Both the position numbers and the translations under genes were made by a program. From the NCBI RefSeq assembly GCF_040819555.1, contig NZ_CP161920.1, positions 509,501 through 573,500 on the forward strand: a stretch of 64,000 nt of DNA. The letters are read 5' to 3'. This stretch comes from Nitratireductor sp. GISD-1A_MAKvit. Its GTDB lineage: Bacteria > Pseudomonadota > Alphaproteobacteria > Rhizobiales > Rhizobiaceae. Shown here piece by piece: positions 4,303 to 17,857 of this stretch (position 1 is its first letter; each line of letters opens with the position of its first letter). The notes beneath the pieces were generated by a model. It was given only the letters and a program-made list of their open reading frames with translations, was not told where the DNA came from and searched no databases.

Positions 4303-4624
4303 TTTCAATACTCCTGAGAATTTCAAATAAGTGCGTCGCATTACCGTCATCGACTGGGTGATACGACTTTTCGCTTGGGTGTATTCCCTTGCTGGTTCCT
4401 CATCTAGTGAGCCGCGGCCCGTTTCGTCAGATCTCGGATCCGAAACAGATCGTTCACAAAAGCTGGAATGTTACGATCTCTCCTGGCCCCGGGTGGAAGC
4501 TCGCTGGCGCTGTCGTCGCAAAGCATCCCCAGATGGTGTTATTCTGGACATTCGTATTGACACATAAACAGATGTTCAATAAGCCTCGGTGTGAGGAAAC
4601 GTCCATCTGGGAGAGTGGTCAGAA
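4303..4624. other. Intergenic region upstream of the DRL operon
   Basis: These 322 bases separate the small secreted gene (minus) from the DRL gene (plus). The right half holds the candidate promoter and operator at 4557-4585. I see no convincing coding frame in the rest; the frames that exist lack ribosome sites and have no recognisable product. Confidence 0.6.
4557..4585 (+). promoter_or_regulatory. Candidate promoter with overlapping operator before the DRL gene
   Basis: A perfect -35 box TTGACA (4557-4562) is followed after 17 bases by a weak -10 TAAGCC. The spacer is part of an inverted repeat: TTGA-C-ACAT, six bases, ATGT-TCAA (to 4579). A second half-site-like GACATT lies at 4548-4553. 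A similar arrangement occurs before gutM (11061-11090), suggesting one shared repressor. The SorC-type regulator at 16826 is the natural candidate; that link is inference. Confidence 0.5.
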
Positions 4625-5941
4625 ATGTCTGCCAATGTTGCGCTTACCGGTCTTGCCCGGGATCTCGAAGATCGGGCCAAATCCGGCAAGCCGATCCGTA
4701 TCGGCCTTGTGGGGTCGGGCGAAATGGGCACCGATATCGTCACCCGTGTTGCACATATGCCGGGTATTGAAATCGGCGCCATTTCGGAGCTGAACCTGCC
4801 TGCGGCCAGCCGTGCCGTCGATATTGCCTATCAGGAAGAGGGGCACGCGAAAGAGGCTGACACGCAGTCGGCCATGACCGCGGCCATGGAAGCCGGCAAG
4901 GTGGCCGTGACCAACAATGCCGATCTCCTTTTGGAAAATGACCTGATCGATGTCGTGATCGATGCGACCGGTGTTCCTGCCGTAGGCGCAGAGATCGGCC
5001 TTCGTGCGATGGAGCACGGCAAGCACCTCGTCATGATGAATGTCGAGGCTGACGTCACCATCGGCGCCTATCTGAAGAGCGAAGCCGACCGGCTGGGTGT
5101 CACCTATTCGCTGGGTGCCGGCGACGAGCCGTCTTCCTGCATGGAGCTGATCGAGTTTGTCTCGGCCATGGGGCATCCCATCGTCGCTGCCGGCAAGGGC
5201 AAGAACAACCCGCTCAACATCGATGCGATCCCGGACGACTATGCTGAGGAAGCCGCGCGCCGCAACATGAATGTGCGCATGCTGGTGGAGTTCGTCGACG
5301 GTTCCAAGACCATGGTCGAGATGGCCGCCATTGCCAACGCCACGGGTCTCGTTCCCGACAAGCCGGGCATGCATGGTCCCAAGGCGACGCTGGACGAACT
5401 GTCCTCCGTGCTGGTGCCGGAGAAGGATGGCGGCGTGCTGTCGCGCGTCGGCGTGGTGGATTACTCCATCGGCAAGGGTGTTGCGCCCGGCGTCTTCGTC
5501 GTCGCCGACATGTCGCATCCGCGCGTTTCGGAGCGCATGGAAGATCTGAAGATGGGCAAGGGCCCTTACTTCACCTTCCATCGTCCCTATCATCTGACCT
5601 CGCTGGAAGTGCCGCTCACCTGCGCCCGCGTCGTCCTTTACGGCAAGCCGGACATGGTGCCGCTGGACAAGCCGGTGGCGGAAGTCTGCGCCGTTGCCAA
5701 GAAAGACATGCAGCCGGGCGACACGCTCGATGCGATTGGTGAATACTGCTACCGCGCGTGGGTCATGACGGTGCCGGAAGCACGCGCTTCCAAGGCGATA
5801 CCCTGCGGTCTTCTTCAGGGCGGCACGGTCACCAAGCCCATCAAGAAGGGCGAACTCATCACGTCCGACAACGCTGCACCGCCGGCCGGTTCCAAGATCG
5901 CCGAGCTGCGCGCGCGTCAGGACAAGCTCGTTTACGGCTAG
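4625..5941 (+). CDS. DXP reductoisomerase-like (DRL family) NAD(P)-dependent oxidoreductase with SAF domain
   Basis: Cytoplasmic protein of 438 residues. An N-terminal Rossmann fold shows GLVGSGEMG at residues 27-35. The middle region carries [16 protein letters not shown] (about 164-180) and GKGKNNPLN (about 190-198), and the C-terminus has an SAF-like domain (from about residue 350). From memory this matches the homoserine-dehydrogenase-like family that includes Brucella abortus DRL, which makes 2-C-methylerythritol 4-phosphate from 1-deoxyxylulose 5-phosphate, replacing classical DXR. It is the first gene of an operon with E1 and E2 subunits of an acyloin dehydrogenase type. That context fits a catabolic role running the isomeroreduction backwards better than isoprenoid synthesis. 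It could instead be the cell's only DXR activity, or act on another branched polyol phosphate. Confidence 0.7.
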
Positions 5942-5955
5942 ACAGGAGTACGAAT

Positions 5956-8001
5956 ATGTCGGCCACGGCCAAGAAGGGCGCCGCTAAGAAAGACGGCGCC
6001 AACCAGCCTTTCATCTACAGGCACTATGATCAGGAAAAGCTGCGCGATGCGCTGCGCAAGATGTATCTAATCCGCCAGTTCGAGGAAGGCGCTGAAGAAA
6101 GCTACATGCGCGGCCTGATCCACGGCACGATGCACCTGTCCATCGGACAGGAAGCAAGTGCTGTCGGCATTTGCCTCGGGCTTTCCGACGAAGACCAGAT
6201 CACCTCCACGCACCGTGGCCATGGCCACTGCATCGCCAAGGGTGCTGACGTTTCGCGCATGTTCGCCGAGTTCTTCGGCAAGACCACGGGTTATTGCCGG
6301 GGCCGTGGCGGCTCCATGCACATCGCCGATGTGTCGACGGGCAATCTCGGTGCAAACGGCATTGTCGGCGGCGGCCTGCCGATTGCTGTCGGTGCCGCGC
6401 TCACGGCCAAGAAGATGAAGACCGGCAATGTTGTCGTCTGTTTCTTCGGAGACGGTGCAAACAACGAAGGCGCGTTCCACGAGGCGCTCAACATGGCGGC
6501 CATCTGGAAGCTGCCGGTCATCTTCGTTTGCGAGAACAATGGTTACGGCATGTCCACGTCCGTCGCCCGCGCGACGGCGGTTCCCAACATTGCCGACCGT
6601 GCTTCCGCCTACGCAATGCCGGGCGTGATCGTCGACGGCAATGTCGTGTCCAACGTGGCCGAGGCCATGCATGAGGCGACCGAGCGCGCGCGCAATGGCG
6701 AGGGACCGACGCTCATCGAGTGCAAGACCTATCGCTATCGCGGCCATTCCAAGAGCGACCGCAACCGCTACCGCACGAAGGAAGAGATCGAAGAGTGGAT
6801 GACCGAGCGCGATCCGATCGAGGCGTATGAGGCCGAACTCGTCGAGTTCGGTGTCATCGACCAGAACGGCATCGAGGAAATCCGCGAATCCGTCCGCAAG
6901 GAGATCGAGGCCGGCATCGAGTTTGCCAAGGAAAGCCCGATGCCCGAAGTCGCCAATCTTGAGAAATACGTCTACACGGAGCAGGGCCTGATGGACGCGC
7001 AAGTCGAGACAGCCACGCGTGAACTGAGCTACGCGCAGGCCATCCAGGAAGCCATGGCGATTGCCATGGAGCGCGATGAGCGCGTGTTCCTGATGGGTGA
7101 GGATATCGGCGTTTATGGCGGTGCCTTTCAGGTCACCGGCGATCTGGTCGAGCGCTTCGGAACCGACCGTGTGATGGACACGCCGATTTCAGAGCTGGGC
7201 GGCGCAGGTGTGGCCGTCGGCGCAGCCGTGACCGGTATGCGTCCGATTTTCGAGTTCCAGTTCTCCGATTTCGCCACGCTCGCCATGGAGCAGATCGTCA
7301 ACCAGGCAGCCAAGATGCGCTACATGCTGGGCGGTGCCGTTTCGGTGCCGGTCGTGATGCGCTTTCCGGCTGGTTCCGGCACGGGTGCTGCCGCACAGCA
7401 CAGCCAGAGCCTCGAAGCATGGCTTGGCCACGTGCCCGGCCTGAAGGTCATCCAGCCGGCCACCCCGCACGATGTGAAGGGCATGCTGCTTGCAGCCATC
7501 GAGGATCCCGATCCGGTGATGATCTACGAGCACAAGCTCCTCTACAAGATGAAGGGCGAGGTGCCGGAAGGCTATTACACGGTGCCGATCGGCAAGGCCG
7601 AGGTTCGTCGCGAAGGCGCCGACCTCACCATCGTGGCCACGTCCATCATGGTGCACAAGTCGCTGGATGCTGCCAAGCAGCTTGCCGAAGAGGGCATCGA
7701 CGTCGAGGTCATCGATCTGCGCACGATTCGCCCGATGGATCGTCAGACGATCATCGACAGCGTGTGCAAGACATCGCGTCTGATGTGCGTTTATGAAGGC
7801 GTGAAGACGCTTGGTGTTGGTGCGGAAATTTCCGCCATGATCGCCGAGAGCGAGGCTTTCGATTATCTCGATGCGCCGGTTGTTCGTCTGGGTGGTGCGG
7901 AGACGCCGATCCCCTACAACCCGGAGCTGGAGAAGGCGACGGTTCCGCAGGTCGATGGCATCGTCAAGGCCGCCCGCGATCTCGTGACGGGAGCGCGCTG
8001 A
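5956..8001 (+). CDS. Fused E1 alpha/beta, thiamine-diphosphate dehydrogenase of acetoin-dehydrogenase type
   Basis: A 681-residue fusion. The E1 alpha half (about 20-345) has [22 protein letters not shown] and the ThDP motif [10 protein letters not shown] ending in CENN (about 165-195). The E1 beta half (about 350-681) has [14 protein letters not shown] and [20 protein letters not shown]. The [10 protein letters not shown] and [12 protein letters not shown] signatures resemble AcoA of acetoin dehydrogenase more than pyruvate dehydrogenase. That family cleaves alpha-hydroxyketones to acyl-ThDP plus an aldehyde, then hands the acyl group to lipoyl-E2. AGGAG at 5944-5948 fixes the ATG at 5956. 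It follows the DRL gene by 14 bases. A natural substrate here would be a 1-deoxyketose (phosphate); pyruvate or acetoin remain possible. Confidence 0.85.
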
Positions 8002-8002
8002 C

Positions 8003-9310
8003 ATGGCTGTTGAAGTCATCCTGCCCAAGGTCGACATGGACATGTCGACCGGCCGCATCTCTTCCTGGCTTGTCGAGGAAGGCGCGACCGTGAAGAAGGG
8101 CGAAGTCCTGTTCGAGATCGAGACCGACAAGGCGGCCATGGAGATCGATTCTCCTGCCGCCGGGATCGTTCGCAACATCACCGGCAAGGAAGGCGTCGAC
8201 ATTGCCGTCGGTGAGGTGGTCGCTTGGATCTATGAAGAAGGCGAAGCCGTTGCCGATGCGCCGGCTGCCGCGCCGGCCGAAGCCGTGGCCGAAACGCCGG
8301 CCAAGGCAGAAGCACCGACCCCGGTTGAGGCTACCGCGCCGGTTTCTCCTGCTCCGGCAGCAAATGCGGAAGCGTCGGCAGGCGTTCGCGCCTCTCCGCT
8401 TGCACGCCGTATGGCGAAGGAGGCCGGGCTCGATCTTTCGGCGATTTCGGGCTCCGGTCCGAAGGGCCGGATCGTCAAGGCCGATGTGGAAGCGGCTGAA
8501 AAGGATGGTGGCGCGAAAGCCGCCGAGTCAGCACCCGCTGCCGCTCCGGCACAGCCGGCCATGTCCGACGATCAGGTCATGAAACTGTTCGAGGAAGGCT
8601 CCTACGAACTGATCCCGCATGACAGCATGCGCAAGACCATCGCGCGCCGTCTGGTCGAGGCGAAATCCACCGTCCCGCATTTCTACCTGACGCTCGACTG
8701 CGAGATCGACGCGCTTCTGGCGCTGCGCAAGCAGCTCAACGATGCCGCGCCGAAGGTGAAGACCGAGGATGGCGAGAAGCCGGCTTACAGGCTGTCGGTC
8801 AACGACATGGTCATCAAGGCCCACGCGAAAGCGCTTGCCATGGTGCCGGAAGCGAATGTCTCCTGGACCGAGAGCGCCATGGTGAAGCACAAGAGTGCCG
8901 ATGTGGGCGTTGCCGTGTCGATCCCGGGCGGACTGATCACGCCGATCATCCGCCGCGCCGACGAGAAGACCCTGTCGGCCATCTCCAACGAGATGAAGGA
9001 TCTGGCCACGCGGGCGCGCTCGCGCAAGCTGAAGGCGGAAGAGTATCAGGGCGGCAACACGGCCGTTTCCAATCTCGGCATGTTCGGCATCAAGGACTTT
9101 GCCGCCGTCATCAACCCGCCGCATGCGACCATCCTTGCGGTTGGTGCTGGCGAGCAGCGGGCCGTGGTGAAGGAAGGCGAGGTGAAGGTTGCAACGGTGA
9201 TGTCGGTGACGCTTTCGACCGATCACCGGGCGGTGGACGGGGCGCTTGGCGCCGAACTCCTCGCCGCCTTCAAACAGGTCATCGAGAACCCGATGACCAT
9301 GCTGGTGTAA
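8003..9310 (+). CDS. Dihydrolipoyl acyltransferase (E2) of the acyloin/2-oxoacid dehydrogenase complex
   Basis: A 435-residue E2 subunit that receives the acyl group from E1 and transfers it to CoA. Domains in order: lipoyl domain (1-80; lipoylated Lys43 in ETDKAAM), an Ala/Pro-rich linker, a peripheral-subunit-binding domain (about 128-162, SPLARRMAKEAG), a second linker, and the catalytic domain (about 205-435) with the active-site DHRAVDG near 406-412. It starts one base after the E1 stop. No E3 (lipoamide dehydrogenase) is present in the window, so E3 must come from elsewhere, as is common. Confidence 0.88.
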   Translation: MAVEVILPKVDMDMSTGRISSWLVEEGATVKKGEVLFEIETDKAAMEIDSPAAGIVRNITGKEGVDIAVGEVVAWIYEEGEAVADAPAAAPAEAVAETPAKAEAPTPVEATAPVSPAPAANAEASAGVRASPLARRMAKEAGLDLSAISGSGPKGRIVKADVEAAEKDGGAKAAESAPAAAPAQPAMSDDQVMKLFEEGSYELIPHDSMRKTIARRLVEAKSTVPHFYLTLDCEIDALLALRKQLNDAAPKVKTEDGEKPAYRLSVNDMVIKAHAKALAMVPEANVSWTESAMVKHKSADVGVAVSIPGGLITPIIRRADEKTLSAISNEMKDLATRARSRKLKAEEYQGGNTAVSNLGMFGIKDFAAVINPPHATILAVGAGEQRAVVKEGEVKVATVMSVTLSTDHRAVDGALGAELLAAFKQVIENPMTMLV

Positions 9311-9349
9311 TCGGCATTCCCGGCTGGCTGAGGGGCTCGTGGCCGGGAA

Positions 9350-9567
9350 AGCAGGGGAGCGCAACGTTGTCTTTGAAGGCAGCGCACGCTTTTTGGGGAG
9401 TGGGGCAATTCAGGTTCCCCGACCAGATGAGGCAGGGAACCTGAAAGACAATACGCCGAAACGGGTGGCTTTGACCGATAGGTGTTGAGCCGGCCCCGTT
9501 GCGATCTCAGACTTTGACCGCGCAACTTGGCGCTGCCTGGATCATCACGGGCAGCGCCTTTTCTTTT
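9350..9567 (+). ncRNA. Candidate structured RNA or 3' UTR with nested long-range stems
   Basis: Between the E2 gene and the HAD gene several perfect complements nest inside each other. CGCAACG (9360-9366) pairs with CGTTGCG (9497-9503). TTGTCTTT (9367-9374) pairs with AAAGACAA (9444-9451). CAGGTTCCC (9411-9419) pairs with GGGAACCTG (9435-9443). The block ends in a Rho-independent terminator (9529-9567). I found no upstream promoter and no coding frame, so it may be processed from the 3' end of the DRL-E1-E2 mRNA. I could not match it to 6S, SRP, tmRNA or RNase P RNA by eye. Confidence 0.45.
9529..9567 (+). terminator. Rho-independent terminator
   Basis: Perfect 9-bp stem GGCGCTGCC / GGCAGCGCC with a 12-base loop, followed directly by TTTTCTTTT. 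It ends transcription from the DRL-E1-E2 side, 218 bases after the E2 stop codon. Confidence 0.85.
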
Positions 9568-9583
9568 GGTCGAGCTTTCGGCC

Positions 9584-10270
9584 TTAAAACTCGCCAACCG
9601 TCTCGTGGATGAAGCCGCGCTTCACCAGCTCCGCCTCGATGTCGTTCCAACTTGAGCAGATGGCGTGAGCACCCGCCGAAGCGAGTTTTTCAGCGTGACC
9701 ATCGAATGTGTGGCTCCCGCCGGTGAAACCGATCGCGGTCATGCCGGCCGCAACGGCGCCCTGCACACCGAATGGCGAATCCTCGATGACGACCGAGGAG
9801 GAAGGCTCGCCACCAAGCTTCTCTGCCGCGAATAGAAAAATATCAGGAGCCGGCTTGCCATTCTTCACCATCGATGTGCTGAACACATTGTCGGCAAAGA
9901 ACTCCGAGAGGCCGGTAACCGCGAGGCTGAGTTCAATGCGTTCCATGGACGACGACGACGCAACGCAACGCGCGGTTTCGAGATTGCGCAGGAATGGCAG
10001 GATGCCACGCGTCGGTTCCAGCTCGGTTTCAAGAAGCGCTCTGGTTTCGGGCCAGATGTCGTCGGACGCGTGCGGTGGGAACGCAAGACCGGTCAACTCT
10101 TCGATGCGGACAATGATGTCGGCCTGTTTCATGCCGATGCACTGGGTGACCGTCTCGCGGCCCAATGCCAGGCCGTGCTTGTTGTAGACGCGTTCATAAG
10201 CGATGGCTGCGAGCGGTTCGCTGTCGACGAGGACACCGTCGCAATCGAATATGATCAGGGGCTTGCTCAT
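9584..10270 (-). CDS. HAD-superfamily phosphatase (beta-phosphoglucomutase-like)
   Basis: A 228-residue cytoplasmic phosphohydrolase with all four HAD motifs: nucleophile Asp9 in FDCDGVLVDSE, motif II serine in VASSSS, motif III lysine in NGKPAPDIF, and the acidic motif VIEDSPFGV. An alpha-helical cap sits between motifs I and II, as in the YieH/YniC and GPH group of sugar-phosphate phosphatases. It is downstream of an unknown gene on the same strand (54-base gap), and that pair is divergent from the gutM-PTS operon. Being embedded in the PTS locus it may hydrolyse the PTS-made phospho-polyol or an overflow product; the exact substrate is unknown. Confidence 0.82.
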   Translation of the reverse strand: MSKPLIIFDCDGVLVDSEPLAAIAYERVYNKHGLALGRETVTQCIGMKQADIIVRIEELTGLAFPPHASDDIWPETRALLETELEPTRGILPFLRNLETARCVASSSSMERIELSLAVTGLSEFFADNVFSTSMVKNGKPAPDIFLFAAEKLGGEPSSSVVIEDSPFGVQGAVAAGMTAIGFTGGSHTFDGHAEKLASAGAHAICSSWNDIEAELVKRGFIHETVGEF

Positions 10271-10324
10271 GGAAACTCCGGAGTTCTGGGAGAAGGTTGA
10301 TTTCTGAGGGCGTTGCTGCCGCGC

Positions 10325-10972
10325 TCAGGCGACGGAATCAGGAAAGATGGAAGGTGCCTCGATGCTCCTGCGACCGGCTTCTATTGCGTTTCGCATGGCC
10401 AGTCGACCTTCAACCAGATCCGGCGCGATCCAGTTCGGCTCGGCTCCGAGAAACCGGTCGAGAAAGGCAACGGCATTTGAGGGCATTTCGCGCGTGTTCT
10501 CGCGATACGACCACCAGGTGCGCAGGTCGTCTGCACAGCGGTCGAGCTGTGGCGCCCTGCCGAACTCCTGCTCGAAGATCGCTGCAATCGCGCATACGCA
10601 GTAATTTGTATAGAGAAAGCCCTCTGGCCAAAACTCAACGATTTCAGCCTTGCCGGTGCGGTTTGTGGTACCGCGGCCGGGACCTGCCGTTGCCGGCCCT
10701 CGCAGGATCATTTCCTTGAGGGCAAGTCCCGCCGCATAGACGATGAAATCGGCGCGGTCGAGCCGGGCGAATGCCTTGCGGGCATCCACCATTTCAACCC
10801 AGTCGAGAAACACGCGGGTCAGCGTTTCCTCGCTGATCTCAAAGGTGACACCATAATGGTCGGAGACGGCCTTTGCGTTGGCGCGAAACGTCGCCCGAAA
10901 CCAGCGTAGCTGACGCAGCCGATGGCGCAGGTCGGGCATGACGGCAAGTTCGTTCTTGAAATCGAGATCCAC
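10325..10972 (-). CDS. Conserved hypothetical protein in the PTS locus
   Basis: A 215-residue, apparently soluble and mostly helical protein; I do not recognise a domain. It is rich in Arg and aromatic residues (RHRLRQLRWFRATF near the N-terminus, DLRTWWSYRENTREMPSNA near residue 150). There is no signal peptide or membrane segment. It is the first gene of a minus-strand pair with the HAD phosphatase and diverges from gutM across a 181-base region that contains the putative operator, so it may be induced together with the PTS. A role as enzyme or regulator cannot be decided from sequence alone. Confidence 0.6.
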   Translation of the reverse strand: MDLDFKNELAVMPDLRHRLRQLRWFRATFRANAKAVSDHYGVTFEISEETLTRVFLDWVEMVDARKAFARLDRADFIVYAAGLALKEMILRGPATAGPGRGTTNRTGKAEIVEFWPEGFLYTNYCVCAIAAIFEQEFGRAPQLDRCADDLRTWWSYRENTREMPSNAVAFLDRFLGAEPNWIAPDLVEGRLAMRNAIEAGRRSIEAPSIFPDSVA

Positions 10973-11060
10973 CGGTGAACTCCTTCGCCGGAACTATAGT
11001 ATGCTGCCGCCGGGTGCCAATCAAATTTGCGGTGGCGCGCTGGCGCGAAGGAATATACAA

Positions 11061-11090
11061 TTTGACATTTCAAAAAACAAATGTTCTTAG
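11061..11090 (+). promoter_or_regulatory. Candidate promoter and operator of the gutM-PTS operon
   Basis: A perfect TTGACA (11062-11067) is followed after 17 bases by TCTTAG as a weak -10. An inverted repeat ACATTT (11065-11070) / AAATGT (11079-11084) overlaps both. The stretch is AT-rich within a GC-rich neighbourhood. The combination TTGACA plus a downstream ATGTTC is also found before the DRL gene (4557-4577). Confidence 0.5.
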
Positions 11091-11153
11091 TTTTGGACTG
11101 ATGGTGTGTGAAGTGCGTACGCTCGGGATGAGCGTTTCGGGAGGAGTCGCCTG

Positions 11154-11591
11154 ATGGCACTGTGGCAGTGGGGGCTTCTGCTCCTCGCGGTCGTCTGGGC
11201 TTTGCAGTCCTACGGCGTGTGGATGCAGATGCGACACTATTCGGATGTCTTCAAGGGCATCACCGGGAAATACACGGACGGCTTTGTCGGAACGGGTGCG
11301 TTTCACGGCCGCTTCCTGAAGCGTGGAGCGATTGCGATTGTCGTGATCGCGCCGGATCTTTCCGTGCGCCGCATCCTCACCATGAGCGGACGCTCCGTGT
11401 TTGCTAAATTCAAGCGACATGAGGAATTCGAGGGCATGGCCCTTGATGCGCTGCGGGCTGAGCCGGCTATCTTCGGAGAAGACAAGCCCGGCCTTACTGC
11501 GGCAATCACGCAGGCGGTGGCGCAGATAGACCGTACGCGTGCGGGGGATGAACCGCCGCTGCGGGACTCTCTGGCCGCAACCAACGCATGA
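11154..11591 (+). CDS. gutM: GutM-type glucitol operon activator
   Basis: A 145-residue protein with one N-terminal membrane helix (LWQWGLLLLAVVWALQSYGV) followed by the conserved WMQMRHY, GKYTDGFVGTGAF and GRGA-like segment of the GutM family. In enteric bacteria GutM (SrlM) is a positive regulator of the glucitol PTS operon; its mechanism is poorly known. A strong GGGAGGAG precedes the ATG. It is the first gene of a five-gene run ending with the HPr-EI fusion. The C-terminal 35 residues extend beyond the usual roughly 120-residue family length. Confidence 0.82.
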   Translation: MALWQWGLLLLAVVWALQSYGVWMQMRHYSDVFKGITGKYTDGFVGTGAFHGRFLKRGAIAIVVIAPDLSVRRILTMSGRSVFAKFKRHEEFEGMALDALRAEPAIFGEDKPGLTAAITQAVAQIDRTRAGDEPPLRDSLAATNA

Positions 11592-11655
11592 CATTCGGGA
11601 CTGCACGCTCACCGGGGCTCAATTACGGGCGTGAGCAGAAGAGAGAGGGAGGACA

Positions 11656-12414
11656 ATGTCTGTCATTTCACTAATGGCCCAGCATGCCGACACGGCAGTG
11701 CAGGGGCTTCAAATGGCCGGGACGGTGGCAGGCGATGCCGCCCTCACCGGCAAGCTTGCTGCCAAGGCTGCAGCCAACGACCTCGTCGTGCTTGCACAGG
11801 CGGGCAGCGACATCTCCGTTGAAGAATTCCGGCAGAAGCTGGATTCCGTCGCCCAGGAAGAGCAGCTCGGCTGGCTCACTGCTGCCGGCAAATATTTCAT
11901 CGGAATTTTCCAGAAGGGCGGCGAGGTCTTTGCCGGCTTTGTCACCGGAATCATCCCGACTCTCGTTGTGCTGATGACGGCTTTCTATGCCATCACCGAA
12001 CTGGTGGGCGAGAAGCGCGTTCATGGGCTTGCCCAGAGCGCCGGCCGCATCGCTCTGACACGCTACACGGTTCTTCCCGTGCTGGCAGTCTTCTTCCTCA
12101 CCAATCCGATGGCCTACACGTTCGGATCGTTCCTCGAGGAAAAGCACAAGCCCGCATTCTACGACGCTGCGGTTTCCTATGTGCATCCGCCGCTTGGCCT
12201 GTTCCCGCACATCAACCCGGGCGAGTATTTCGTGTGGGGCGGTATCCTCGTCGCACTGCTTGAGCTTGAGAGCCAGGGCGTGGTGCCCGGTGGTTACCAC
12301 ATCACCGTGGCCATCTGGTACGCGCTGGTTGGCCTCGTTGTCATCCTGCTCAAGGGCATGCTGACCGAGAAGATCACCGCCATCATGGCACGCCGCCAGG
12401 GCGTTGAGCTCTAG
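11656..12414 (+). CDS. srlA: PTS glucitol/sorbitol-type EIIC component
   Basis: Membrane permease subunit, 252 residues. From about residue 73 onward it follows E. coli SrlA closely (YFIGIFQKGGEVF, FVTGIIPTLVVL, LFPHINPGEYFVWGGI, TEKITAIM), with about four to five membrane helices. The first 70 residues are an Ala-rich, soluble-looking extension absent from the E. coli protein. The ATG at 11656 has a good ribosome site (GGGAGGAC), so the extension seems real. It forms the transport channel with the C-part of the next gene. The transported polyol may differ from glucitol. Confidence 0.9.
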   Translation: MSVISLMAQHADTAVQGLQMAGTVAGDAALTGKLAAKAAANDLVVLAQAGSDISVEEFRQKLDSVAQEEQLGWLTAAGKYFIGIFQKGGEVFAGFVTGIIPTLVVLMTAFYAITELVGEKRVHGLAQSAGRIALTRYTVLPVLAVFFLTNPMAYTFGSFLEEKHKPAFYDAAVSYVHPPLGLFPHINPGEYFVWGGILVALLELESQGVVPGGYHITVAIWYALVGLVVILLKGMLTEKITAIMARRQGVEL

Positions 12415-12428
12415 GGGAGGGGCAGGAC

Positions 12429-13439
12429 ATGGCTAAAACATACAAAGCAGTAAAGATCTCGAAGGGCTCCTCCGGCTGGGGCGGTCCTCTGGTGATCGAG
12501 CCGACGGCTCAGCGCAACAAGGTGGTGTCCGTCACGGGTGGTGGCATTCATCCGGTCGCACAGCGCATAGCCGACATGACCGGCGCCGAGGTTGTCGACG
12601 GTTTCAAGAGCCCGCCCATCGAAAGCGAGATGGCAGTGGTTGTGGTCGATTGCGGTGGCACGGCGCGTTGCGGCGTGTATCCCCGCAAGCGCATTCCGAC
12701 CGTCAATCTCACGCCGGTCGGCCAGGCCGGGCCGCTTGCCCAGTTCATCACAGAAGACATCTATGTCTCTGGCGTCACGCCGGAGTCCATCGAGATGGCT
12801 GATGGCAGCGAAGTTGCGACGGTTGCCGGCGGCGCTTCAAGCGCCGGTGATGCCTCCGAACAGGCAAGTTCGGCCGCTGCGGCCGTGGAACCCACCAGCG
12901 AAGGTGGCCTTGTGGGGCTTATCAGCAGTGTCGGTCGCGTCATGGGGCGTGTTGTCGGCATCTTCTTCAATGCCGGCCGCCGGACCATCGACCAGGTGGT
13001 GCGCAACGTGCTGCCCTTCATGGCATTTGTGACGATGCTGATCGGCCTGATCCTCTACACGGGCATTGGCGACATTCTCGCCCAGCCCATGGGTCCGCTG
13101 GCCAACAACATCATCGGGCTGCTCATCATCTCGGCCATCTGCGGTCTGCCGTTCCTCTCGCCCATTCTCGGGCCGGGCGCGGTCATTGCGCAGGTGATCG
13201 GCGTGGCGATCATCGGTCCGCAGATTGCCAATGGCACGATTTCGCCAGCCATGGCTCTGCCGGCGCTGTTTGCCTACAACACGCAGGTGGGCTGTGACTT
13301 CGTGCCGGTGGGCCTCGCACTGGGTGAAGCGAAACCGAAGACGATCGAAATCGGTGTTCCGGCGGTTCTGATCAGCCGCCAGATCATGGGTCCTGTTTCG
13401 GTGGCGCTTGCCTGGGCGGTCAGCCTGGTGGTGCTTTAA
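12429..13439 (+). CDS. srlE: PTS glucitol/sorbitol-type EIIBC component
   Basis: A 336-residue EIIB plus second half of EIIC. The EIIB domain (1-130) has KGSSGWGGPLVI and the phosphorylated Cys75 in VVVDCGGTARCG, at the same position as in E. coli SrlE. A linker rich in Ala and Ser (about 130-155) leads to the membrane part (about 165-336), with LPFMAFVTMLIGLI, LSPILGPGAVIAQVIGVAI and NTQVGCDFVPVGLALGEA. It passes phosphate from EIIA to the incoming polyol. It lies 14 bases after srlA with a GGGAGGGGCAGG ribosome site. Confidence 0.92.
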   Translation: MAKTYKAVKISKGSSGWGGPLVIEPTAQRNKVVSVTGGGIHPVAQRIADMTGAEVVDGFKSPPIESEMAVVVVDCGGTARCGVYPRKRIPTVNLTPVGQAGPLAQFITEDIYVSGVTPESIEMADGSEVATVAGGASSAGDASEQASSAAAAVEPTSEGGLVGLISSVGRVMGRVVGIFFNAGRRTIDQVVRNVLPFMAFVTMLIGLILYTGIGDILAQPMGPLANNIIGLLIISAICGLPFLSPILGPGAVIAQVIGVAIIGPQIANGTISPAMALPALFAYNTQVGCDFVPVGLALGEAKPKTIEIGVPAVLISRQIMGPVSVALAWAVSLVVL

Positions 13440-13510
13440 AGATCGGGAATGGCGGTCGTCTTCCGGCGGCCGCCGCTCCCACAACAACAGTTTGCATGGA
13501 GTTTTCTTGT

Positions 13511-13894
13511 ATGTCGGTGTTTCTCAAAACGCGCATTACCGCGGTCGGTCCGGAAGTCGCGGATCTGGCAGAAGGCGGTGTCCTGATTCTTTTCGCTGAC
13601 GGTGCGCCGGAGGAACTTGCCGAGGTCTCGGTGCTTCATGCGGTGGAAGAAGGTCCGAGCGATGCCGGGCCCGTTGCCGGCACGCGTGTTTCCATCGGCG
13701 AAGCGGTGACCGCCGAGATTACTGCCATGGGCGAAGCCGCATGGAACAAGGTGCGCGAGATCGGTCATGTCGTGGTGAACTTCAACGGCGCGACGGCGGT
13801 TGAGCGCCCGGGCGAGATCTGCGCTTCCGTTGTGGAGCCGGACAAGCTTGTTGCCGCGCTCAAGGCTGACACCATCATCACAATCGGCGCCTGA
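13511..13894 (+). CDS. srlB: PTS glucitol/sorbitol-type EIIA component
   Basis: A soluble phosphocarrier of 127 residues. The phosphorylated histidine is His43 (AEVSVLHAVEEG), aligned with His43 of E. coli SrlB, and GHVVVNFNGATAVERPGEI matches the family C-terminal half. GGAG at 13498-13501 favours ATG 13511 over an in-frame ATG at 13496 that overlaps this ribosome site. It transfers phosphate from the HPr domain of the next gene to Cys75 of SrlE. Confidence 0.9.
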   Translation: MSVFLKTRITAVGPEVADLAEGGVLILFADGAPEELAEVSVLHAVEEGPSDAGPVAGTRVSIGEAVTAEITAMGEAAWNKVREIGHVVVNFNGATAVERPGEICASVVEPDKLVAALKADTIITIGA

Positions 13895-13927
13895 CGCCGC
13901 AACGAACTGAAAAGATACGAGATCGGT

Positions 13928-15914
13928 ATGGAACGCTCGACCATCGTCAGAGTGCAGGACGGCCTGCACGCCCGTCCAGCCACCCGCTTTGTGCGCCTCG
14001 CCAAGGGGTTTGAGAGCGACGTGGAAATCGTCAAGGGTGAAAAGGCCGTGAGCGCCAAAAGTTCGGTGAAGCTCATGTTGCTGGGCGTGAAGGAGAATGA
14101 CGAAGTCTCCATTCGTGCCGATGGCGCTGATGCTATCGAAGCTGTCGACGCACTCATTGCCTATCTGGAAAACCCGATGTCGGGAATCGAGGAAGGCGCT
14201 GCGGAGAGCGCGCCGCAGGCTGCAGCACCGGTCGAACCGGCACCCGCGCCCACCACGGTCGAGCAGTCAGAGGCCCCCGCCGATGGCAGTCTGCATGGCA
14301 TCGCGGCCAGCGCCGGTCTTGGGCTGGGCCCGATTTTCGCGCATTTTCCGCAGCAGATCGAGCCACGCAACGAGACCCTGCCCGCCAGTGAAATAGAGCC
14401 GGAGAAAAAGCGCTTCGAGGAGGCCATTCTGCGCCTTCAGGAGAAGCTCGATCACTCTCTGGCGTCCGATGGCATGCAGGAGAGCGATAGAGGGATTGTT
14501 GCCGCTCTGCGCGACATCGCTTCCGATGATGCGCTGCGCGACGAAACCCTTGCTTCGATCGATGGCGGTCTCGACGCGGTTTCCGCGGTGATTGCGGCCT
14601 CTTCGCGCCTGGCTGACGATTTCCGCAAACTGGAAGATGCCTATATGGCAGCCCGGGCCGAGGATATGGAATCCATTGCCCGGCAGATTTGCCTGACACT
14701 GCTTGGGCAGGAAGATGCACGCCTCGACGACATTCCCGAAGGTGCGATCCTTGTGGCCGAAGATATCGGTGCATGGGACCTGGCGCGTGCGCCGCTCAAG
14801 CGGCTTGGCGGCGTGGTCTGCGGTCATGGCGGTGCGACCTCCCATGTGGCGATCATCGCCCGCACCCATGGCATCCCTGCAGTGCTCGGTCTTGGTGAAG
14901 CAGTGAACCAGCTGCGCGATGCTCGTGAAGCGGCAATCGACGGCCACAGCGGTCAGGTCGTCGTCGAGCCGGACGAAGCAACCCGCGCACGCTTTGAGAA
15001 AATGATCAATGCGGCCACGCGCGAGAAGGAGGCGCTCAAGGGCCTACAAGGATGTGGTGCCGCGGCGGGCCGACGGCACGGTCATTCAGGTGGCGGCAAA
15101 TCTCGGTTCGCTCGAAGAGGTGGAAGCTGCTCAGGAAGCCGGCGCAATGGGCGTTGGCCTGTTCCGCACCGAGCTGCTGTTCATGCGCCACATGCATCTG
15201 CCTTCCGAGGACATGCAGGCGGAAACCTACGCCGAACTTGCACGCGCATTCCCGGAGTACCCGGTAATCGTCCGCACGCTGGACATCGGCGGCGACAAGC
15301 CAATTTCCGGCGTCGAATTCCCTGAAGAAGAGAATCCTTTCCTCGGCTGGCGCGGCATTCGCATGTGCCTCGACCGTCCGGACATCTTCAAGGTTCAGCT
15401 CCGGGCCCTTCTGCGCGCGTCAGTCCATGGCAATCTGCGGGTGATGCTGCCCATGGTTTCGGATGTCGAAGAGGTGCGCAGGACGCGCGCGCTCATCGAT
15501 GAATGCGCCGCCGAGCTCAAGGCCGAAGGTGTGGCATATGGCGAGTTTCCGCTAGGGGTCATGATCGAGACACCGGCTGCCGTCTTCGGTGCTGCGGCAT
15601 TGGCAAAGGAAGTTTCGTTCTTCTCCATCGGCACCAACGACCTGACACAATATGTGATGGCGGCGGACCGTCTCAACCCCGCAGTTGCCGGTTTGAACGA
15701 TGCCGCTCACCCGGCGGTGCTGGCGGCTGTCGAGCATGCAGCAAAGGCTGCCGTCGAGGCCGGCATCGAGATAGGCATGTGTGGCGAGGCGGCTGCGCGC
15801 GAAGACCTGATCCCCGAATTCGTGCGCATGGGGCTGACCGAACTGAGCATGAGCCCGGCATCCGTGCAGGCAACCAAGAAGCAGCTCTCGCAGATGTTTG
15901 ACAGCGCAGCCTGA
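13928..15914 (+). CDS. Fused HPr - PTS enzyme I (frame interrupted once)
   Basis: Energy-coupling protein for the adjacent EII, about 661 residues after correction. HPr domain: 1-85 with His14 in DGLHARPA. A Pro/Ala linker is followed by enzyme I from about residue 125: phospho-His in GGATSHVAI near 306, PEP-binding FRTELLFM, and GIEIGMCGEA with the catalytic Cys. No EIIA domain is fused. The frame breaks at 15040-15042, where GGG should be GG (LKAYKDVV across the join); the same type of error occurs in five other genes here, so it is probably technical. If real, the PTS would be dead. Most rhizobia have only the regulatory nitrogen PTS, so a dedicated HPr-EI makes this locus self-sufficient. 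Confidence 0.88.
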
Positions 15915-15935
15915 GGCCGGGCCGAAACTGCGGCC

Positions 15936-16736
15936 CTACGGCAGGTGTTCGAGCAGGCTGGCGAAAACGGCTGTCAGATCTTCGATGGGCTGATCTGCTT
16001 CGAGGCTGCGGGCCATTCGCCCGCAGCGCGCAGCGACGGCCATCACGGCTGTTTCGAGCAACTCGGCAGGTTCAAGGCTGGCATCAAGGTCAGACAGCGC
16101 CGATGCAACCAGCCCTGGAGCGAAAATGGCGACCGCGTCTTCCAGACTCTGCTTTGCCGGTGATGGTGCCGGCTCGTTTAGCGCATGACGGCAGAGTTCT
16201 TGCAGAAGTTCTGCAAGGAGGCCTGCAAACAGCGGTCTCAACGCATGCGGTCCCGTGGCCCTGCGCAGGCGAAACAGGATGTGCCCCTGCCGTAGACGGA
16301 TTGTTTCATGGGCCTGGGTGAAGGTCGTTTCGCGAAGGAGGTGTGATGCGGCGCTTTTTCGTCGCGCGGCCACACGTCTGGCGATCGGATACATGTGCTT
16401 GCGAAAAGCACGCTCGCCATTCTCGCCATTCGCGTTGAAATAGTCTGTTAATGGCAACAGGACCAGTTGGTCTTGAGTGTTTCCCGGACGCGCTGTGCGC
16501 GAAGCGGTTTCGGCCAGCGTCAGCGTGTCATCGACAACGCTGACAGCCCGTCCAAGCAATCCTTCCAGATCGGGTCGGTGTCGCTCACGGTCCAGTTGGT
16601 CATACTGGTCGTGGCGATGCGCCCGCATAAAATCGCGGATGTCTCTCAACCGGTCGCGAAGGTGTATAGTCAAGTCTTTCGAGGTATCGCGAAGCATTTG
16701 GCAGTCCCAGGAGATCAGTTTTCTACCGGCGGGCAT
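15936..16736 (-). CDS. Hypothetical helical protein
   Basis: Up to 266 residues from the ATG at 16736; an internal ATG at 16697 is an alternative and neither has a clear ribosome site. The protein is Arg/Leu/Ala-rich and appears all-helical, without membrane segments (KDLTIHLRDRLRDIRDFMRA near the start, LLAELLQELCRHAL and LLETAVMAVAARC near the end). I do not recognise the family. It converges on the HPr-EI gene (21-base gap) and diverges from the SorC regulator gene. Function unknown. Confidence 0.55.
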   Translation of the reverse strand: MPAGRKLISWDCQMLRDTSKDLTIHLRDRLRDIRDFMRAHRHDQYDQLDRERHRPDLEGLLGRAVSVVDDTLTLAETASRTARPGNTQDQLVLLPLTDYFNANGENGERAFRKHMYPIARRVAARRKSAASHLLRETTFTQAHETIRLRQGHILFRLRRATGPHALRPLFAGLLAELLQELCRHALNEPAPSPAKQSLEDAVAIFAPGLVASALSDLDASLEPAELLETAVMAVAARCGRMARSLEADQPIEDLTAVFASLLEHLP

Positions 16737-16825
16737 TGACCGGATGGCGACATCATTGTTTTGGTCTTTCCGGAAACCAAGCGCGATGCTTGAAACCGTC
16801 CAGGGGACATTAGCAGGAAAACCAA

Positions 16826-17857
16826 ATGAGCAAGGCGAAAATGCACAAGCAGCCTGCACGACGGCCTGCCGGTACGACCAGTTCCGGCGAGATCGCCGTT
16901 TCTCCCGCCAGGGGAAGTGTGACCAGCAAAACCGACCGGCTGCGCGTGCGTGCCGCATGGATGTATTTCGTCGAGCAGAAAACGCAGAACGAAATCGCCG
17001 AGATTCTGGGCATTGGGCGTGTCAGCGTGGTGCGCATGCTCGCGGACGCGCGCGCCCGCAACGAGGTCAAGATCACCATCGAGGGTGACCTTGCCGAAAT
17101 CACCAGCATGGAGCGCGCGCTTGAGGAGCGGTTCGGTCTGGAACGCGCTGTCGTGGCGCCGCTCTCAGACCCTGATGCCGACCCCATTCCCGCCATCAGC
17201 GCTGCTACGGGAAGCCATGTTTCGGATGTGATGTCATCCGATATGTCGGTGGGGGTGGGCTGGGGGCGCACTCTTTTCGGCTCGCTTCCGTTCATCCGGG
17301 CGCGGCCACTCGCCGATTTCAAGGTCATTTCGCTGCTTGGCGGTGTTGGCGTTGCTCGCCGATTCAACCCGGCCGAATTTGCCTGGCGGTTTGCGCGTGC
17401 GTTCCAGGGCGACGGGTATCTCATTCCTGCGCCTGCGGTGGTGGACAGTGTCGAGACCAAGGCAGCGCTGATCGAGCGTTGCGGTTTACACGAGATCCTC
17501 GCATTGGCCGACACGCTGGATGCGGTCATCATCTCTGTCGGCGGTCTGGCATCGGCCACCACATTCTACCGTGGGGGCTATCTCTCGGAGGCCGTGCGCG
17601 AGGCGCTGGAAAACCAGGGAGCCGTTGGAGACATTCTCTACCATTTCTATGACCGGGACGGGCAACTCGTTGACCACCCGATCAATGAGCGGGTGATGTC
17701 GGTCGATGTGGACCGGCTGCGCCGCGCGCCCATGCGCATTCTCACCTCTGGCGGTGAAGACAAGATCGAAGCGCTGATCGGCGCCATGAAACTGGTGGAG
17801 CCCACGGTTTTCATTACGGATGAAGAAAGTGCCCGCAGAATGCTGTCGTTGGCGTAA
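16826..17857 (+). CDS. SorC/DeoR-family sugar-binding transcriptional regulator
   Basis: A 343-residue regulator. After a basic N-terminal tail, the helix-turn-helix lies at about 50-85 (TQNEIAEILGIGRVSVVRML). A sugar-phosphate-binding SorC domain (about 95-340) follows with SVGVGWGRTL, VISLLGGVGVARRF and ILTSGGEDKIEALIGAMK. SorC proteins usually sense the phosphorylated substrate or an intermediate of the pathway they control. It is the only sugar-responsive DNA-binding regulator in the locus, so it is the best candidate for the repeats at 4557 and 11062. Start choice is uncertain, as no strong ribosome site is seen. Confidence 0.88.
   Translation: MSKAKMHKQPARRPAGTTSSGEIAVSPARGSVTSKTDRLRVRAAWMYFVEQKTQNEIAEILGIGRVSVVRMLADARARNEVKITIEGDLAEITSMERALEERFGLERAVVAPLSDPDADPIPAISAATGSHVSDVMSSDMSVGVGWGRTLFGSLPFIRARPLADFKVISLLGGVGVARRFNPAEFAWRFARAFQGDGYLIPAPAVVDSVETKAALIERCGLHEILALADTLDAVIISVGGLASATTFYRGGYLSEAVREALENQGAVGDILYHFYDRDGQLVDHPINERVMSVDVDRLRRAPMRILTSGGEDKIEALIGAMKLVEPTVFITDEESARRMLSLA

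Follow-up and report, generated by a model that had tools for sequence, protein, structure and literature searches.

Why should a DXR type II protein (DXR-II, also called DRL), whose relative in Brucella serves isoprenoid biosynthesis, be encoded among genes for sugar-alcohol uptake and for a pyruvate dehydrogenase (PDH)-like complex? This question is raised by a locus of Nitratireductor sp. GISD-1A_MAKvit, contained in a stretch of 64,000 nt, hereafter the window, whose positions serve as coordinates throughout. The cluster is a recurring one and, judging from its genes, appears to reverse the first committed step of isoprenoid synthesis, with methylerythritol as food. Specifically, we favour, with some reserve, the view that it is a catabolic gene set for 2-C-methyl-D-erythritol, which would be converted to MEP, then to DXP, and finally to acetyl-CoA and glyceraldehyde 3-phosphate.

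Gene content and proposed route

The locus comprises the following genes:

4625-5941, +: DRL / DXR type II (438 aa), Pfam DRL_cat 1.6e-68
5956-8001, +: ThDP-dependent E1 alpha and beta, here in a single frame, beta start near 6991
8003-9310, +: E2 dihydrolipoamide acyltransferase (lipoyl, E3-binding and catalytic domains)
9584-10270, -: HAD phosphatase of the beta-phosphoglucomutase/sugar-phosphatase type
10325-10972, -: orphan conserved protein X (215 aa)
11154-11591, +: GutM
11656-12414, +: PTS gut-type IIC (SrlA)
12429-13439, +: PTS gut-type IIB/C2 (SrlE)
13496-13894, +: PTS gut-type IIA
13928-15914, +: HPr-EI, frameshifted (frames 13928-15325 and 15009-15914)
15936-16715, -: hypothetical ORF adjoining SorC, of uncertain cluster membership
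16826-17857, +: SorC/DeoR-type regulator with sugar-binding domain

Every gene named by the first-pass annotation is present, about where it had been placed; the gene for protein X had been overlooked. Two of its descriptions were misleading. The E1 is there, but its fusion comes down to a short run of Gs near 6984-6986 that differs in length by one base; in two close relatives (L147 and L073), E1-alpha and E1-beta are encoded separately, by genes that overlap. Likewise, of the "complete" PTS with its own HPr-EI, SrlA, SrlE, IIA and GutM are found, but HPr-EI is split by a frameshift, so that the gut-type PTS is not intact as sequenced; in the same two relatives HPr-EI is open, in frames of 650 aa and 701 aa, respectively.

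In general, the transport part resembles the glucitol/sorbitol PTS operons (srlAEB, gutM), with which it shares IIA, IIB, IIC and GutM, SrlA, SrlE and SrlB all being found in the window. In contrast to those operons, the place of the dehydrogenase is filled by DRL, and an HPr-EI gene is included, as in several alphaproteobacterial clusters. No sorbitol-6-phosphate dehydrogenase (SrlD) occurs among the window genes scanned, in which DRL and the E1/E2 complex are the only dehydrogenases. By eye, the ORF at 15936-16715 looks like a conserved hypothetical protein (Y) of other clusters, with no BLAST link between the two.

From this set of genes we infer the following route. The gut-type PTS would import methylerythritol and phosphorylate it to MEP, a task that in other strains would fall to a CUT1-type ABC transporter and a PfkB kinase. 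The cluster DRL would then oxidise MEP to DXP with NAD+, that is, the isoprenoid step in reverse, and E1/E2, together with E3, would split DXP between C2 and C3 into acetyl-CoA and glyceraldehyde 3-phosphate, with formation of NADH. SorC probably senses a phosphate of the pathway, and the HAD phosphatase and protein X may have roles of their own in it. The first-pass annotation knew of no described pathway of this kind, and none for methylerythritol catabolism was found among the papers listed by the literature searches, largely ones available without subscription.

Recurrence of the cluster and exchange of its modules

E1 lies directly 3' of DRL in 82 of 130 DRL rows, window included, and E2 is present in 79 of the 81 E1-adjacent loci that were fetched. 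The order sample of genomes gave 46 DRL matches; with the window and five distant ones (35-38% identity) set aside, E1 was directly downstream in 13 of the remaining 40 loci. On a hand-chosen DRL tree of 58 rows, E1 linkage requires at least nine changes. Clustering by chance was rejected, since the same gene set recurs; the 13 linked loci and the changes on the tree both make it look like something other than chance. In 15 of 80 named loci (L101, for example), the DRL is 82-88% identical and no E1 lies in the flanks examined.

The module for uptake and phosphorylation alternates between the gut-type PTS and the ABC transporter with PfkB kinase. Among E1-adjacent loci with at least 9 kb on each side (n = 54), 30 have the PTS, nine have PfkB and 15 have neither. 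Plasmids of S. meliloti Rm41 and A. tumefaciens CFBP7129 carry a set consisting of kinase, ABC transporter, SorC, DRL, E1a, E1b, E2, E3 and lipA. Outside the Alphaproteobacteria, a Priestia plasmid holds PTS, E1, E2, E3, SorC and DRL in one stretch, in a different order, its DRL being 44% identical and not adjoining E1. DRL and PTS without E1/E2 were seen in three of the four Bacillota genera examined; in Ligilactobacillus the pair stands alongside transaldolase/transketolase genes.

Properties of the DRL and of the E1/E2 complex

The window DRL belongs to the same family as the Brucella DXR-II of isoprenoid biosynthesis (3upl, 3upy), with which it aligns over 435 residues without gaps (phmmer E = 1.8e-219); it also matches NAD_binding_3 (1.1e-07) and, weakly, SAF (1.2e-04). 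Ten Brucella positions taken from PMC3847144 (121, 174, 178, 191, 193, 229, 250, 320, 322 and 351) are all identical between the window DRL and 3upy, and K191, K193, T229, R320, E174 and H250 are retained in all 14 cluster DRLs aligned. DXP/MEP activity of DXR-II has been published by others, including for paralogues in two species from cluster-carrying genera: in M. loti and O. anthropi, additional paralogues were reported functional by complementation (PMC3847144).

Three features set the window DRL apart from its Brucella relative: its place in a transport/PDH-like cluster, the presence of a further, stand-alone DRL in the same genome, and the residue at position 55. Here Brucella has Ala55 followed by Arg, whereas the window DRL has, by alignment, a Glu. 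An acidic residue closing beta-2 is a mark of NAD-dependent Rossmann oxidoreductases, and by alignment the window DRL conforms to this NAD-type rule. Asp or Glu occupies the position in all 82 E1-adjacent DRLs, as against 29 of 48 other rows, which suggests use of NAD+ and hence oxidation; an independent-pairs test of residue against E1 linkage offers at most one informative pair, and kinship may thus lie behind the association. We propose from these alignments that the cluster DRL is a MEP:NAD+ oxidoisomerase yielding DXP, working in the direction opposite to that of the Brucella enzyme.

As for the complex, the window holds two parts comparable to those of the acetoin dehydrogenase complex (AcoAB, AcoC, AcoL), namely E1 of the same alpha/beta superfamily and a lipoyl E2 with E3-binding domain, to which some DRL clusters add E3 and lipA. 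A Thr-His-Arg motif is shared by the cluster E1 and an acetoin-operon E1, and recurs in two E1s of unknown role (L172 and L174); the genome's own PDH-type E1, encoded at a separate locus, has Gly-Tyr-Arg instead. The closest solved structures to the window E1 are pyruvate dehydrogenases. In the E1 tree, which includes a single acetoin-operon E1, the forks between acetoin, PDH and cluster E1s are either weak or left open and the branches are long, and the cluster E1 shares no clade with that acetoin-operon E1. Acyloin cleavage to acetyl-CoA and an aldehyde, the reaction of acetoin dehydrogenase, is the chemistry we propose for the cluster E1/E2; unlike acetoin dehydrogenase, this complex is encoded together with DRL and the genes for sugar-alcohol uptake, and its substrate would be DXP. 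In other words, E1 is a candidate DXP-cleaving, acetyl-transferring dehydrogenase. A chemical precedent is the formation of 1-deoxyxylulose by purified PDH (PMC3424233), and acetoin dehydrogenase is likewise named in the title of a 1986 paper cited there. By annotation, none of 13 annotated DRL plasmid regions contains an acetoin reductase or butanediol dehydrogenase. The stretches from S. meliloti and A. tumefaciens do contain an unnamed zinc/alcohol dehydrogenase.

Direction, substrate and origin

It had been reasoned that a classical dxr gene (DXR-I) elsewhere in the genome would leave DRL free for catabolism. This argument is rejected, as no such gene was found in the window genome; its place is taken by the stand-alone DRL at C2:3411580-3412887, beside a proC-like gene, which could serve isoprenoid synthesis. 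The family sample has 15 genomes in which DRL adjoins E1; DXR-I (four genomes) or a second DRL occurs in 11 of them, and the other four have neither. IspF is present in those four and in two genomes of the order sample, G085 and G188, making six genomes over two samples in which no MEP synthase other than the cluster DRL was found. Redundancy of the cluster DRL thus does not hold as a strict rule: in these six genomes it probably handles DXP/MEP and is not purely catabolic. In G183, each of the two DRLs is linked to E1, and no DXR-I was found.

These six genomes, the fact that no DXR-I was found in the window genome and the role of Brucella DRL would all suit a cluster DRL that is simply the isoprenoid enzyme, the PDH-like complex and the PTS being unrelated or a loosely linked operon. 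We consider this improbable, given the second DRL of the window genome, the four genomes with DXR-I, a DRL-E1 linkage that recurs alongside two transport modules unrelated to each other, the Priestia plasmid with its matching gene set and an orphan protein X that follows the cluster-type E1. That the cluster produces methylerythritol in vivo is very improbable. A mutant E. coli PDH E1 does support DXP formation in vivo (PMC3424233) and the window has a HAD phosphatase, but the HAD gene, present in the flanks of some clusters, was not seen in those examined of many; PTS and ABC-kinase modules are systems of import and phosphorylation, E2, E3 and lipA would be superfluous, and the acidic residue speaks against NADPH.

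DRL and E1/E2 might also act as proposed on a related substrate, such as 2-C-methylthreitol, 1-deoxyxylulose or another 2-C-branched polyol oxidising to a 1-deoxyketose phosphate, an alternative that is unlikely and yet carries appreciable weight. FGGY kinases, the class to which XylB belongs, adjoin DRL in Priestia and are some 12 kb away from it on a Phyllobacterium plasmid; in Nitratireductor OM-1 and Arthrobacter they occur close to E1/E2 genes that have no DRL with them. XylB phosphorylates 1-deoxyxylulose (PMC3424233). Moreover, the Ligilactobacillus arrangement would suit conversion of a hydroxymethyl-branched polyol to an ordinary pentulose phosphate. On the other side, the six IspF genomes and the paralogues reported as functional in M. 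loti and O. anthropi indicate that DXP/MEP are probably accepted. Methylerythritol catabolism itself, with its sequence of uptake and phosphorylation, DRL and E1/E2, was not contradicted by the genome tests run, and gained comparative evidence from the swapping of PTS and ABC-PfkB modules, the Bacillota example, the acidic residue of all E1-adjacent DRLs, the separate PDH-type E1 and a second DRL potentially available for isoprenoid synthesis.

Free methylerythritol is found in plants. In addition, 2-methylerythritol and 2-methylthreitol are described in PMC12177631 as isoprene photooxidation products, mainly in the condensed phase. If working, the reverse-MEP pathway would be a named sink for methylerythritol carbon, would supply engineering with a natural complex that cleaves DXP and forms acetyl-CoA, and would bear on how a functionally redundant DXR-II could arise in DXR-I strains, a question posed in PMC3847144.

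A broader reading is possible, if rather doubtful: the DXR-II family would be at root a catabolic MEP oxidoisomerase tied to sugar-alcohol uptake, later recruited to isoprenoid synthesis in lineages losing DXR-I, with a switch of the cofactor residue between acidic and arginine, and protein X would have a dedicated, hitherto undescribed part in the reverse-MEP pathway. A catabolic root would explain both the coexistence of DXR-II with DXR-I and its activity in bacteria without the MEP pathway. The reversed step of the cluster, if confirmed, may itself help to explain the puzzlingly scattered distribution of DXR-II, an alternative terpene-making enzyme. The D-apionate oxidoisomerase (ApnO) pathway is a catabolic parallel, in that a branched-sugar derivative is oxidised with rearrangement of its carbon skeleton; there, in contrast, the substrate is an acid and the later enzymes differ. 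DXR-II with confirmed activity is known from Finegoldia and from Chloroflexus, which has only the mevalonate route (PMC3847144). Protein X, which has no Pfam, NCBIfam or PDB match, tracks the cluster-type E1, being present in 16 of 17 genomes with such an E1 and in none of 104 others.

Gene content and proposed function

The cluster most likely encodes a methylerythritol catabolic pathway. In the proposed route, methylerythritol would be taken up and phosphorylated, the resulting MEP would be oxidized to DXP by an NAD-linked reverse DXR step operated by the cluster DRL (a type II DXR, DXR-II), and CoA-dependent cleavage would then release acetyl-CoA and glyceraldehyde 3-phosphate. The components belong to known families; a literature search, with most subscription papers outside its scope, did not find their arrangement described.

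The window corresponds to C2:509501-573500 of a 4.1 Mb genome in two contigs (G000). The gene set proposed in the first-pass annotation is indeed present, namely DRL, E1 alpha/beta, E2, HAD, GutM, gut-type IIC/IIB/IIA, HPr-EI and SorC, together with a conserved gene that had been overlooked. Three genes need to be specified:

5956-8001: E1, alpha and beta parts in a single frame
10325-10972, minus strand: conserved protein X, 215 aa
13928-15914: HPr-EI, frameshifted as sequenced

The E1 described as fused is a single frame in the window, but the close relatives L147 and L073 encode E1-alpha and E1-beta in two genes that overlap. What joins the two parts in the window is a single-base difference from both relatives, located in a short run of G near 6984-6986. 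The genes of the PTS with its own HPr-EI are all there, but HPr-EI is split in the window, whereas L147 and L073 have uninterrupted reading frames of 650 and 701 aa. Either a sequencing error or a real mutation may lie behind the joining and the split. Nitratireductor aquimarinus (L147) carries the closest named DRL (99% identical) among the best 80 of 547 relatives in a contig scan.

Recurrence of the cluster and its accompanying protein

DRL matches (E<=1e-60) occur in 35 of the 199 order-sample genomes, and E1 lies directly downstream in 13 of the 40 loci opened, a set that omits the window and five distant matches. Among the best 80 of 547 relatives, whose top rows are biased toward near kin, E1 was seen in 65 and was absent from the viewed flanks in 15. 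Altogether, 82 of 130 DRL rows (128 fetched loci, the window and Brucella DXR-II, 3upy) have E1 directly downstream, window counted. Of the 81 fetched E1-adjacent loci, 79 contain E2, 31 a gut-PTS, 14 a PfkB kinase and 36 neither PTS nor PfkB; restricting the set to the 54 loci that extend 9 kb or more each way gives 30, 9 and 15 for the last three. Close relatives recur within all these counts. An annotated Aminobacter locus (L157) scored as neither has GutM and IIC starting 11-12 kb downstream. In the ABC-type clusters a PfkB kinase, along with a transporter and its solute-binding protein, stands in for the PTS.

The 15 named loci without E1 in the viewed flanks (Phyllobacterium sp. 628, a single record fetched as L101 and L156, plus 14 more) have DRLs 82-88% identical; in Phyllobacterium (87%) a sugar ABC transporter and an aldose epimerase lie beside DRL. 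A DRL with 83% identity to the alphaproteobacterial protein also turns up under the title Bacillus subtilis SK6B4, where mislabelling or a mixed assembly is the probable cause.

On plasmids, 87 records gave a DRL match; 17 of these were opened and 13 had gene annotation, 8 of the 13 having DRL, E1 and E2 together. S. meliloti Rm41 and A. tumefaciens CFBP7129 show kinase, ABC, SorC-type regulator, DRL, E1a, E1b, E2, E3 and lipA. Priestia aryabhattai shows PTS, GutM, E1a, E1b, E2, E3, regulator, MFS transporter, regulator, DRL and FGGY kinase, its DRL being just 44% identical and about 5 kb past E3. Listeria, Ligilactobacillus and Enterococcus combine gut-PTS and DRL with no E1 seen in the viewed stretches, so that, with Priestia, a gut-PTS accompanies DRL in all four Bacillota genera opened. 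The Deinococcus DRL (36% identical) has neighbours other than cluster genes. Two Ligilactobacillus salivarius plasmids (L161, L180) carry DRL-PTS-GutM-regulator followed by fructose-6-phosphate-aldolase/transaldolase and transketolase, with no E1/E2; a different branched polyol is possibly the substrate there. DRL-E1-E2 on a plasmid of Rhizobium sp. L51/94 is followed immediately downstream by an operon for thiamine biosynthesis; E1 requires thiamine diphosphate, whose thiazole is made from DXP.

The protein X of the window has no Pfam or NCBIfam match at E up to 1 and no PDB match. Of the fetched loci that span 19 kb or more, 34 of 54 E1-adjacent ones encode X vs 0 of 44 others; in the family sample X occurs in 16 of 17 genomes with cluster-type E1 (at least 70% identity to window E1) and in none of the remaining 104. 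It is found beside PTS and ABC versions alike, and its invariant residues in a 20-row alignment include Trp58, Trp115, Trp153 and Trp181.

Substrate and cofactor of the cluster DRL

The window DRL aligns gaplessly with Brucella DXR-II (3upl/3upy) over 435 residues (E=1.8e-219). It equals 3upy at positions 121, 174, 178, 191, 193, 229, 250, 320, 322 and 351, described in passages of PMC3847144 as important or family-specific. A classical dxr elsewhere in the genome, which had been envisaged as leaving DRL free for catabolism, was not found with PF02670 and PF08436, the Pfam domains of DXR-I; IspF is present, and the genome instead encodes another DRL, 75% identical, whose surroundings include genes that by eye are proC-like and Lrp-like.

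In the family sample of 121 genomes, DRL (E<=1e-120) occurs in 80, DXR-I in 44 and both in 6. By coordinates, DRL lies beside E1 in 15 genomes: DXR-I is found in four, a second DRL match in seven (surroundings viewed for G000 and G069) and neither in four (G282, G286, G264, G216). The order-sample genomes G085 and G188 likewise have the cluster DRL only, with no DXR-I found, and all six sole-cluster-DRL genomes possess IspF. G183 has two DRLs, each E1-linked, and no DXR-I found. Genomes in which no other candidate was found probably rely on the cluster DRL for MEP synthesis, and its substrates would then be DXP and MEP; where it is redundant, it would be free for another task.

According to PMC3847144, M. 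loti and O. anthropi possess further DXR-II paralogues that are functional. As related Mesorhizobium and Ochrobactrum strains have the cluster, we infer that one paralogue of each is probably of cluster type. The same text reports confirmed DXR-II activity in Finegoldia, with no other MEP or mevalonate genes, and in Chloroflexus, with the mevalonate pathway only, and raises the question of how a redundant enzyme could evolve. A catabolic origin of DXR-II would suit both this distribution and the redundancy question.

The end of beta-2 is the usual site distinguishing NADP from NAD binding. There, Brucella DRL has Ala at position 55, then Arg, and in many stand-alone alphaproteobacterial DRLs Arg follows Thr or Val; the stand-alone DRL of the window genome reads Asp-Thr-Arg. 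Position 55 is Asp or Glu in all 82 E1-adjacent DRLs vs 29 of the 48 remaining rows (Fisher p=4e-10, kinship among rows ignored). On a 58-row tree built with the cofactor-residue columns left out, at least 9 changes are required for E1 linkage and at least 5 for the acidic state; an independent-pairs test had at most one informative pair, too few to establish that the two traits evolve together. The acidic residue is consistent with NAD+-linked oxidation.

The E1/E2 complex

The closest solved sequences to window E1 are PDH E1. The genome also has a separate E1 pair (51% and 40% identical); its adjoining frames look by eye like enolase and E2, and on that ground it is taken as the housekeeping PDH. 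Six alphaproteobacterial cluster E1s group firmly (100/100) in a tree of 15 rows and join the Priestia and Clostridioides E1s weakly (80/87), with the own PDH-type E1 apart (open fork). The Gly-Tyr-Arg of the genome's own PDH-type E1 is replaced by Thr-His-Arg in cluster, Priestia and Clostridioides E1s; Thr-His-Arg also occurs in an acetoin/butanediol-operon E1 (L177) and in two E1s of unassigned role (L172, L174). The excerpted text of PMC3424233 states that purified PDH makes 1-deoxyxylulose out of pyruvate and glyceraldehyde, and the title of a 1986 paper that it cites names acetoin dehydrogenase too; by analogy, DXP cleavage by the cluster-type E1 would be chemically reasonable.

On plasmids of Nitratireductor sp. 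OM-1 (L176) and Arthrobacter (L174), in stretches with no DRL annotated, E1 and a lipoyl protein (an alpha/beta-hydrolase-type E2 in OM-1) accompany a sugar ABC transporter, FGGY kinase and SorC-type regulator, which hints at acyloin-cleaving complexes in other sugar pathways. A Clostridioides difficile plasmid record, with no DRL annotated in the stretch, encodes an E1 54% identical to window E1 together with E2, E3, a SorC-type regulator, PTS, class II aldolase and lipoate ligase, adjoining ispD.
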